Assembly (NCBI RefSeq): GCF_900070365.1
Contig: NZ_LN850107.1
Location: 1,426,001 to 1,490,000, forward strand
DNA length: 64,000 nt
Source of the DNA: Alloactinosynnema sp. L-07
GTDB lineage: Bacteria; Actinomycetota; Actinomycetes; Mycobacteriales; Pseudonocardiaceae
Direction of reading: 5' to 3'
Part shown: piece after piece, positions 46,293 to 49,170 of the stretch
Numbering within the stretch: position 1 is the stretch's first letter
Layout: the number at the start of each line of letters is the position of its first letter
The notes under the pieces: generated by a model
The model's input: only the letters and a program-made list of their open reading frames with translations
Database searches by the model: none
What the model was told of the DNA's origin: nothing
Made by a program: the position numbers and the translations under genes

Positions 46293-46489
46293 GGCATCCG
46301 TCCCAAGGGGACTTCTGAGTATCGCAGCTCCGTCCGGCCTGTCCACCGATCCGCCGGTCAGGGCAAATGGCCAGGCCGCCTTGGCGGGCCGGGCGGCGAC
46401 CCGGTAGGTATGTAGGTGGCGTGCCGCCGGGAACGAGATCGGCCGGGCGTGCGTCGGAAGCGAAACAGAGTCGGAGTTGGGGGTAGCAC

Positions 46490-46789
46490 GTGGTCGCCCA
46501 GATGGACGTCGGCGAGGTCCGCAGGATCGCGCGGGAGGCGCGCGCGGAGTTGGGGGCCGTCCCGCCCGCGACAGAGGGCGAGGCGCAGGTCAAAGCCGGG
46601 ACCGCGCTGTTGCGCCACGAAGGTGCCACACCGACGCTGAACACGATGGCCGAGCGGCTGCAGGAGGCGCTGGCCGAGCTGTCAGCACTCACCGGTGACG
46701 TCATCGACGCCCTCGGCAAGTCCGCCGACCTGCTCGGCGACACCGAGAAGGCCAACACGCACAGCCTCAGCACCAGGAAGGTCTCGTGA
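46490..46789 (+). CDS. Small helical WXG100-like (type VII substrate) protein
   Basis: 99 residues, GTG start. Predicted as two long amphipathic helices separated by a short turn, with helix 2 around TLNTMAERLQEALAELSALT, i.e. the size and shape of ESAT-6/CFP-10-type proteins, but with no Trp and so no true WXG motif. It overlaps the next gene, a WxG-calpain fusion, by 4 bp. By analogy with ESX pairs it may be the secretion partner of that protein's N-terminal domain. Assignment rests on size, helicity and neighbour. Confidence 0.6.
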   Translation: MVAQMDVGEVRRIAREARAELGAVPPATEGEAQVKAGTALLRHEGATPTLNTMAERLQEALAELSALTGDVIDALGKSADLLGDTEKANTHSLSTRKVS

Positions 46790-48489
46790 CCACGCCCGGG
46801 CCGTGGACGTGGGACCTCGTCCTGATCTCCGAGCCTGAGGGCGGCCACCAGGCCGCCGCCGGGTTCGCCGCGATGGCCGCCTCCGCGAACGGCATCACCA
46901 GCGTCATCGACAAGCTGGAGCGTGTCCCGTGGGAGGGCCCGGCCGCCGAGGCGTACCGCGCCTACCTCAGTGACCTGCGCGGCGTCGTCCTGCGGACCAT
47001 GACCGTGGCCGAGGACAGCCAGCACGCCACCGTCGGTGCCACCGGCACCTTGGACGCCCTGCGCACGCCCGCGACGGAGACCGCCGACGAGCTCAACCGG
47101 TTCCAGGCCGCCGTCGACCAGATGAACGGGCCGAACAACGACGACCTGGACTTCATCGAGGTCACCCAGGTCGCGGTCATGCGCGGTCAGGCGATGGGCG
47201 CGCTGGGCCGGGTTCGCGGCCAACGCGACGAGGCGCTCAACCTGCTCACCGACCTGGTCAAAGCCCAGGAGGAAACCCTGCTCACGCTGCGCCCGCCGCG
47301 CGGACCGGACGCCTCGCGGATCACCGACCCGGTCGAGCGCGCCGCGGTGGAGGCGCTGTCGGGCGAGGTCAACCAGACCCTCGACAAGGCGGGCGACACC
47401 GATCGCGCGCGCGACTACGCCGACAAGATCAACCAGGCGGACAACGACTACGCCCGCAGGCTGCTGTTGCTGCAGGCCGCCGACGACCTCAGCGCCGCCG
47501 AACTCGACTACCTGCTCGACCACCTCGACACCGACGCGCTGCACAACGCGATGGCCACCGACTTGCTGCCCTTCGGGGGCGGACCGGAGGACAGCGCGGC
47601 CCAGCGCGAGTTCTACAACAAGATCGCGGGCAAGGTCGACCTCGACACCCTCAACGGCCTGGCCGACCAGCTGCCCGAGGACTACTGGCACCCGAATCCG
47701 TACAACGACGTGCCCGAGCTCGGCGACGACCTGCGCCCGGACGGCACCAACCTCAGCTGGCAGCCGCTGCCCGACGCGGGCAAGCCGGTCACCGCCGACA
47801 CGATCGACCCCAACGATGTCCAGCAGCGCGGTCTCGGCGACTGCCACCTGCAGGCCACGCTGTACTCGCTGGCCGGCACGCCGGAGGGTAGGCAGCAACT
47901 GGCCGACAACATCCAGCTGAACCCCAACGGCACCTACACCGTGACGCTGTACCGCAACGACGGCACGCCGGTCCCGGTCGTGGTCACCCCCGACACCCCG
48001 GTGCAGCGCAACGGCGCGGGCTGGCAGTCGACCTACGACGGCAACCAGGCCAACTGGGTGCAGCTCTATGAGAAGGCGCTGGCCCAGACCAACGCCGAGC
48101 TGTCGCAGCAACCGTCGATCGAGAGCGGCCACGGCCAGAACCAGGAGCGCGGCTACCCCGGCCTCAACGGCGGCTTCCCCGAAGAGGACATGGCCAGGGT
48201 CACCGGCGAGCGCCCCGAGAAGGTCGACAGCCCCAACGTCACCGACGACCAGCTGCGCGAGTTCGAACGCGACGGCAAGCCGGTGACCGTCACCATCCTG
48301 GGCGAGGAGCCGTACCAGGACCCCAGCGGCACCAATCTCGTCAACAATCACGTGTACTCGCTGGAGCGTGTCGACTGGAGCACCAACCCGCCGACCGCGC
48401 ACCTGCGCAACCCGTGGGGCAGCGAGCACATCGCGATGCCGCTCAACGACCTGCGTGCGCACACGACGTACATGACCGTGGGGAAGTAG
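46786..48489 (+). CDS. WxG-domain protein with C-terminal calpain-type (C2) cysteine peptidase
   Basis: 567 residues, GTG start. The N-terminal 110 residues are a helical WXG100/LXG-like domain with W49-E-G51 in the turn (VPWEGPAAEAYRAYL). A helical linker follows to about 330. The C-terminal domain matches the calpain core: QQRGLGDCHLQATLYSLAGT with catalytic Cys353, NNHVYSLERVDW with His522, and HLRNPWGSEH with Asn542. There is no signal peptide; the N-terminal domain is the likely type VII export signal. It sits between a small WXG100-like protein and two small candidate inhibitors. Proposed role: exported protease effector. Known bacterial calpains are rarely characterised. Confidence 0.85.
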   Translation: MTTPGPWTWDLVLISEPEGGHQAAAGFAAMAASANGITSVIDKLERVPWEGPAAEAYRAYLSDLRGVVLRTMTVAEDSQHATVGATGTLDALRTPATETADELNRFQAAVDQMNGPNNDDLDFIEVTQVAVMRGQAMGALGRVRGQRDEALNLLTDLVKAQEETLLTLRPPRGPDASRITDPVERAAVEALSGEVNQTLDKAGDTDRARDYADKINQADNDYARRLLLLQAADDLSAAELDYLLDHLDTDALHNAMATDLLPFGGGPEDSAAQREFYNKIAGKVDLDTLNGLADQLPEDYWHPNPYNDVPELGDDLRPDGTNLSWQPLPDAGKPVTADTIDPNDVQQRGLGDCHLQATLYSLAGTPEGRQQLADNIQLNPNGTYTVTLYRNDGTPVPVVVTPDTPVQRNGAGWQSTYDGNQANWVQLYEKALAQTNAELSQQPSIESGHGQNQERGYPGLNGGFPEEDMARVTGERPEKVDSPNVTDDQLREFERDGKPVTVTILGEEPYQDPSGTNLVNNHVYSLERVDWSTNPPTAHLRNPWGSEHIAMPLNDLRAHTTYMTVGK

Positions 48490-48493
48490 GACG

Positions 48494-48763
48494 ATGAACG
48501 ACTTCACCGAAAGCGTGGGCGCCCCCCAGGGACTGCTGGTCCCCCTCGGCGGCGTCGCGACCGACCCGGACGGCGTCAACTACGCCGTGGCGTCCATCGA
48601 CGGCGACAACGTCGAACTCCGCTGCTGGCGCGGGGAGGAGAGCGCGACCGTCGTGCGCGCGGTCAAGGGTGTCCCGGTGCGGATCGGAGAGCAGGACGTG
48701 CTGATCTCCGCGGTGCTGACGGAGGAGGGCAAGCGGCCATGGGTCGTTCTCGGACCGGCCTGA
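48494..48763 (+). CDS. Small cytoplasmic protein, candidate immunity protein
   Basis: 89 residues, ATG four bp after the calpain gene. Predicted beta-rich (GLLVPLGGVATDPDGVNYAV; NVELRCWRGEESATVVRAVK), no signal or membrane segment, acidic. No family I recognise with confidence. Tight spacing behind a putative toxin and its small size suggest a role in neutralising the peptidase inside the cell, which is inference from position only. Overlaps the next gene by 25 bp. Confidence 0.6.
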   Translation: MNDFTESVGAPQGLLVPLGGVATDPDGVNYAVASIDGDNVELRCWRGEESATVVRAVKGVPVRIGEQDVLISAVLTEEGKRPWVVLGPA

Positions 48764-49170
48764 TCGCCGCCCTCGGCTGCCTGCTCGCCCTCGCCGGGTG
48801 CGGCGGGACGGAGACACCCGCCGACCCCGTCGCTGTCTCGACGACGACTCCGTCTCCCGATGTCAAGCCCAGCGGCTACCAGTTGCCGCAGGGCGAGTCG
48901 ACGGAACTGTTCACGGGCAAGACCGGCACGGTCACAGTAAAGGTGGGTGACGTGCTCGTGGTGCAGCGCACGCGGGAGGTGCGCCAGCGTCCCGATAGGA
49001 CGGTGCTGGTCCTGGCCGAGTCCCGGGCCGACGGCAAACTCGTGTTCCAGGCCATCGCCGCGGGCCGCACGTCGCTCTACACGGAGGACCCGCGCCGCGC
49101 GCCGTGCTCGTCGACGCCGTGTCCGCCGGGCGTGGGCGCCCCGCCGAGCGTCACCGTGGAGGTCAAGTAG
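48739..49170 (+). CDS. Lipoprotein of the calpain operon
   Basis: 143 residues from ATG 48739. Signal peptide with lipobox LALAGC, acylated Cys21. The mature domain looks all-beta (GTVTVKVGDVLVVQRT; LVFQAIAAGRTSLYTEDP) with two cysteines (APCSSTPCPPG). The VGD/strand/GRTSLY spacing recalls the chagasin-like (I42) immunoglobulin-fold inhibitors of cysteine peptidases, but the inhibitor loops NPTTGY and RPW are not present, so this is a weak resemblance. Being on the outer face of the membrane it could guard against the exported peptidase. Confidence 0.65.
   Translation: MGRSRTGLIAALGCLLALAGCGGTETPADPVAVSTTTPSPDVKPSGYQLPQGESTELFTGKTGTVTVKVGDVLVVQRTREVRQRPDRTVLVLAESRADGKLVFQAIAAGRTSLYTEDPRRAPCSSTPCPPGVGAPPSVTVEVK

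Follow-up and report, generated by a model that had tools for sequence, protein, structure and literature searches.

What is a calpain, best known as a signalling protease of animals, doing in an actinobacterium, with three small genes packed around it? The question is raised by a locus within a 64-kb stretch of the Alloactinosynnema sp. L-07 genome (the window), where genes for a helper of 99 amino acids (aa), a calpain-type protein of 567 aa, a soluble protein of 89 aa and a lipoprotein of 143 aa follow one another (Table 1). We consider it probable that the four form an effector cassette that moves as a unit and comprises an exported calpain, its helper, an inner guard and an outer guard. 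On this reading the 567-aa protein would join its N-terminal hairpin to the helper, the two forming a helical bundle that contains one WxG motif and addresses the pair to a type VII (ESX/EssC-type) exporter. The protein substrates of the calpain-type cysteine endopeptidase would lie beyond the producer, most likely on or within competing cells, to which the enzyme would be toxic; the 89-aa protein would inhibit the enzyme in the producer's cytosol prior to export; and the lipoprotein, anchored to the outer face of the membrane, would inhibit enzyme coming from outside.

The calpain and its four-gene unit

The 567-aa protein matches the Pfam family Peptidase_C2 (PF00648) at 53.3 bits, against a cut-off of 23.8, and a profile built from 12 relatives matches solved calpains with E-values down to 1.4e-26, the Cys, His and Asn motifs being aligned. 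Gln347, Cys353, His522 and Asn542 are invariant in both sets of aligned proteins (12 of 12 and 41 of 41), and Cys, His and Asn are all retained in 77 of the 81 non-redundant relatives described below, the four exceptions being two shortened open reading frames (ORFs), one frameshifted frame and one replacement of Asn by Ser. The predicted structure is calpain-like, with the triad set in the calpain core fold. By family match and model, the C-terminal domain is a calpain family C2 peptidase with an intact triad and predicted enzymatic activity. The calpain-type peptidase with intact Cys353, His522 and Asn542 proposed in the first-pass annotation was thus borne out by Pfam, by comparison with solved calpains and by the model, as were its four ORFs, their positions and strand, and the peptidase fold that it expected.

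Table 1. Features of the locus, in positions of the 64-kb window of Alloactinosynnema sp. L-07; all four genes lie on the + strand.
Feature	Position	Strand	Basis
99-aa helper gene, presumed partner of the calpain N-terminus	46490..46789	+	ORF
567-aa WxG-calpain gene	46786..48489	+	ORF, Pfam, profile alignment, model
Predicted helical hairpin, calpain protein residues 20-91, Trp-Glu-Gly 49-51 at the turn	46843..47058	+	model, motif
Peptidase_C2 domain, residues 336-547, with Gln347, Cys353, His522 and Asn542	47791..48426	+	Pfam, alignments, model
89-aa soluble all-beta protein, presumed cytosolic guard, weak DUF6406 kinship	48494..48763	+	model, hhalign
143-aa lipoprotein, lipobox LAGC, presumed outer guard, domain family unassigned by Pfam	48739..49170	+	ORF, lipobox
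Stretch homologous to the G014 locus, spanning the four genes	46419..49164	+	DNA comparison, 82.8% identity

The genes are closely packed: the first two overlap by 4 bp, the second and third are 4 bp apart, and the last two share 25 bp. The calpain is present in 2 of 16 genomes of the genus, and the second carrier, G014, has counterparts of all four proteins: identity over aligned stretches is 77% for the helper (over 96 aa), 88% for the calpain, 84% for the 89-aa protein and 71% for the lipoprotein, and over full pairs 76%, 88%, 84% and 63%, respectively. Comparison of the whole window with the 18-kb G014 locus (L006) gave one DNA match only, which starts 71 bp upstream of the first gene and ends 6 bp short of the end of the last, and four genes that flank the cassette in the window were looked for in L006 without a match. 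Window and G014 have in common a four-gene unit set in a different gene context. Ratios of non-synonymous to synonymous substitution rates between them are 0.32 for the helper, 0.18 for the calpain, 0.24 for the 89-aa protein and 0.37 for the lipoprotein, and the cassette is real and conserved and looks functional. An empty site was not located in sister genomes.

The same genes could be read as an exported house protease that trims the producer's own surface or matrix proteins, the two small proteins being inhibitors against misfiring, much as staphostatin prevents the misfiring of staphopain. We regard this as unlikely, since the patchy presence of the calpain in the genus and its changed gene context in G014 are more usual for effector-immunity genes, as is the orphan relative of the 89-aa protein (46% identical) in genome G1121. 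A Peptidase_C2 search of G1121 found none, which does not prove absence, and the orphan would fit orphan immunity as well as other jobs.

Beyond the genus, Peptidase_C2 was found in 22 of 397 genomes of an order sample and 6 of 396 of a phylum sample, and relatives of the 567-aa protein in 41 of the 394 genomes of a class sample. A contig scan with the single protein gave no relative, and an alignment query gave 52 named loci, 20 of them titled Streptomyces and the others Cellulomonas, Jiangella, Kribbella, Microbispora, Humibacillus and more. Genes in 96 loci, among them the flanks of 40 genome-search places, were called with a simple codon-usage caller (1204 genes), and clustering at 95% identity reduced the 93 calpain ORFs of 300-1000 aa to 81 non-redundant ones. 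Locus comparisons support the view that helper, enzyme and two small downstream genes are a recurrent unit, as had been suggested from the window alone.

Helper, WxG motif and proposed type VII export

The 99-aa helper is alpha-helical by composition and had been labelled WXG100-like; it has no WxG motif and no Pfam or NCBIfam match of weight, so that profiles do not support the label. Helpers of the relatives align with it and occupy the same position. Among 30 helpers scanned by profile at E up to 0.1 (those of the window, G014 and two other relatives, and 26 of 36 listed helpers), eight match EspC, three WXG100 and two PPE; the window helper matches none of the three. The WxG motif of the window pair is found on the calpain protein instead, as the first-pass annotation had it: Trp-Glu-Gly lies at the turn of a predicted hairpin with helices at residues 20-45 and 52-91, modelled with moderate confidence (predicted local distance difference test, pLDDT, about 48-74). 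The N-terminus gives no significant match to WXG100 or LXG profiles.

The location of the motif follows a simple pattern. Of 47 helper-calpain pairs, with the first 130 residues of the calpains counted, 34 have WxG in the helper alone and 11 in the calpain alone; one pair has it in both partners and one pair lacks it. After collapsing at 60% calpain identity (21 pairs) the figures are 15, 5, 0 and 1 (Fisher's test, P = 2.9e-4; 6.5e-4 and 1.6e-3 for collapse at 70% and 50%). There is one WxG per helper-calpain pair across relatives, which is what a two-protein bundle with a single WxG would show. YxxxD/E, the export motif of substrates of the T7SSa class of type VII secretion system (T7SS), occurs in 6 of the 47 helpers and 22 of the 47 calpain N-termini. 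At locus L110 (5143-6899, genome G597), the calpain is preceded by a 59-aa protein that shares the first residues SELY with the calpain N-terminus and is not the usual helper.

Type VII machinery, on which export of the calpain had been supposed to depend, is encoded in the same genome. EccB is found at 3.98 and 5.18 Mb with over-cut-off EccC matches beside each, and EccD-like and mycosin-like genes were recognised by eye at the same two places. In a panel of 35 genomes, of which 15 have helper, calpain and guards, EccC was sought with profile TIGR03925. Five of the 15 have a match over the cut-off. Another nine, all without EccB, score 195-224 bits, which is below the cut-off, in frames of 1557-1573 aa; the case for these nine rests on score and frame length, because the profile also gives matches below cut-off in 8 of 14 control genomes. 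Of the 81 loci, 11 have an EccC-like or WXG100 gene in the flanks that were fetched, and three of the 11 (L115, L119 and L157) are query loci or copies of one. Elsewhere in the window genome, at L178 (8027-13740, about 2.828-2.834 Mb), one frame of 1021 aa contains both an EccC-like stretch and a part that by eye is transposase-like, so that this third ATPase gene looks broken; adjoining proteins of 473 and 98 aa resemble another WXG-type effector and its helper.

Proposed guards in the cytosol and at the envelope

Three cytosolic and three lipoprotein genes from downstream of calpains served as seed for a hidden Markov model (HMM) of the presumed guards, which after eight iterations matches 85 of 1033 genes in the 81 loci, 84 of them within three same-strand genes downstream of a calpain and the last a frameshifted frame at L149. 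Within that distance one or more guard-family genes occur in 51 of the 81 loci; in 32 a cytosolic guard is accompanied by one that is a lipoprotein or membrane-anchored, the cytosolic gene coming first except at L124 and L134. The domain is doubled in 19 proteins, 18 of them classed as lipoproteins. The frame at L149 (5176-7452), which holds calpain and lipoprotein, resembles a fusion of calpain and guard; it was not counted as a fusion because it passes from the catalytic domain into the lipoprotein through an apparent frameshift.

Since the HMM had been seeded with both kinds of guard, the shared domain was checked separately. The Pfam family DUF6406 (PF19944) is matched at E up to 0.1 by 14 of 21 cytosolic proteins (window and 20 of 30 listed; best 5e-10) and, at the envelope, by 9 of 26 (that of the window plus 25 of 42 listed; best 4.8e-17). 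Separate profiles of cytosolic and envelope guards match each other in seven of nine groups (P from 1.1e-40 to 4.4e-4), failing in the group of the window (P = 0.36) and in that of genome G035 (P = 0.18), and four comparisons across groups are weaker (P from 2.2e-4 to 0.022). Because of these Pfam and group profile matches, we conclude from sequence comparison that in many relatives one beta domain sits on both sides of the membrane. The two-sided protection proposed in the first-pass annotation gains in likelihood, since cytosolic and envelope genes carry the same Pfam domain in many relatives. The idea that every guard is closely matched to the partner at its locus was rejected: in 17 of 36 loci the own pair scores above the 99% level of shuffles, and in 2 of 36 the single best partner is the own lipoprotein, so that concerted evolution is shown for some groups only.

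The case for a shared domain is weaker for the window than for its relatives. Its 89-aa protein has no Pfam match, PF19944 included, and a PF19944 search of the genome gave a weak match elsewhere than in the cassette. The structural model, built from an alignment that includes the guard family, is confident and all-beta (pLDDT 84.1, predicted template modelling score 0.72). Together with its relatives from G014 and G1121 the protein scores 23.6 in hhalign against six cytosolic relatives, compared with at most 18.4 in 100 column shuffles; alone it scores 19.5, compared with at most 16.9 for 188 unrelated small proteins, but with the alignment out of register. On sequence and model, it may be weakly related to DUF6406. 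The 143-aa lipoprotein has no Pfam match up to E 1, and its earlier label as an I42 inhibitor is not supported, there being no I42 match in the Pfam or NCBIfam profiles. Since genome G1167 has a stand-alone lipoprotein with 31% identity to it, a different lipoprotein may have been recruited to the outer post in the window lineage, in which case the outer guard here would have a different domain.

With both guards being versions of the DUF6406 domain in many relatives, one fold would be posted on both sides of the membrane. We suggest, with slightly more doubt than belief, that DUF6406 may be a bacterial calpain inhibitor family, that actinobacteria post this one inhibitor fold on both membrane sides, and that guard placing follows the enzyme, with cytosol and envelope served for WXG-type calpains and the cytosol only in some Streptomyces-type loci. 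DUF6406 is matched in 71 of 374 genomes at E 0.001 and in 29 over the cut-off. At two recurring types of place in loci of family f103 (L182-L184, L186-L189, L191, L193, L194 and L196-L205) it occurs without a calpain, as lipoproteins beside ligase-like genes and as 89-aa proteins beside a helicase-like gene (neighbours judged by eye). Such calpain-free occurrence, the position of the small genes next to the enzyme, and a beta fold with no known inhibitor among the matches listed would also suit chaperones or folding or activation factors of an exported protease. We hold this to be improbable: an export chaperone is not needed on the outer face, and one domain used inside and outside, together with the 19 double-domain proteins, fits neutralisation better.

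Several observations weigh against an exported calpain with two guards. The kinship of the 89-aa protein to the guard family is weak, the 143-aa lipoprotein is not joined to the DUF6406-like family in profile comparison, and no known inhibitor fold is among the matches listed. Of 30 fetched DUF6406 loci (about 3 kb each) seven have a calpain and 23 do not, 20 of the latter being from family f103, and 19 Frankia-type loci keep the calpain without guards. Neither the helper of the window nor the first 130 residues of the window calpain contain YxxxD/E, and genome G035 (86% complete) has the cassette genes but no EccB, and its EccC match is weak (8.1e-11). Finally, the surroundings of the window cassette, at 1.47 Mb, showed no T7SS gene, and the two EccB/EccC places lie megabases from it. 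This lack of a T7SS neighbour, and calpain loci with a cytosolic guard only (L110 and L111), would suit a protease that remains cytosolic, with a role in regulation or defence and a WxG hairpin that is a mere dimerisation unit; we think this very improbable, as most guarded calpains adjoin a lipoprotein or membrane-anchored guard, helpers match the EspC and WXG100 profiles, and EccC-like genes lie near some loci.

Described systems and outlying calpain loci

The first-pass annotation knew of no described system of this make-up, which is in part wrong. Calpain domains joined to WXG-type domains, as here, were listed in 2015, with three WXG100-calpain fusions in Herpetosiphon and one in Segniliparus, and a referee's comment printed with that paper holds WXG-fused calpains to be likely T7SS toxins; the passages concerned describe no helper, downstream guards or DUF6406 (Rawlings, 2015; PMC4631099). 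Compartment-specific immunity is also on record: for EsxX, a T7SS toxin of S. aureus, protection is provided separately within the cell and outside it, as proposed here, but EsxX depolarises membranes, and ExiAB and ExiCD are different families, not one domain used twice (PMC12744356). The full helper-calpain-guard-guard cassette was not found in the open-licence PubMed Central literature, nor was a function for DUF6406 or DUF6406 by name. The newer element is the same guard domain on both membrane sides in many relatives.

Other systems share single features. TslA-TilA-TlaA1-TlaA2 of S. aureus, like the cassette proposed here, is a set of four T7SS genes that combines an enzyme toxin with small helical partners and an immunity lipoprotein, but the enzyme is a lipase with reversed domain order, the lipoprotein belongs to the DUF576 family, and the four genes named include no cytosolic guard (PMC10730906). 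Cpe1-Cpi1, as proposed for the present cassette, sets a small immunity gene next to a papain-fold cysteine protease toxin; Cpe1 differs in being delivered by type VI secretion or contact-dependent inhibition in gram-negative bacteria, is not a calpain, and cuts GyrB and ParE (PMC12136450). Papain-like peptidase domains (Tox-PL1) have been described on actinobacterial WxG-type T7SS toxins, though from other papain-like clades, and the word calpain is absent from the first 300,000 characters of that text (Zhang, 2012; PMC3482391). Actinobacterial EssC variants with FHA domains have been described as T7SSd (PMC11217815).

A scattered remark on WXG-bearing bacterial calpains thus becomes a defined, testable four-gene system, DUF6406, a Pfam family of unknown function, gains a concrete hypothesis, and one WxG per helper-effector pair offers a rule for spotting T7SS effector pairs. 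If the proposed cassette is real in function, calpain in these bacteria would be an exported effector with its own inhibitors, the guards would be natural protein inhibitors of calpain-type proteases, and a single immunity fold would be used in two compartments.

By the HMM, 30 of the 81 loci have no guard: those of the window and G014, the 19 Frankia-type loci (17 of family f104 and two titled Frankia), three of family f8, and L106, L107, L108, L149, L156 and L163. Neither helper nor guard was found in the f104 loci (L074-L083, L085-L088, L092, L094, L097, L100, L128 and L133, Frankia sp. R82 included), where the calpain is mostly at a fixed place and, by eye, mostly beside a thiolase-like or GMC-oxidoreductase-like gene; this lone calpain may have another role. 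The calpains of L106 (5639-7352, genome G441) and L107 (5786-7655, genome G629) have by eye a hydrophobic, TadE/Flp-like N-terminus and are followed by one small lipoprotein-like gene that lies outside the guard HMM. At G231 (C1:4789819-4803120) and in several genomes of family f15, open frames of 1,679 to 9,009 aa contain one to six Peptidase_C2 matches.
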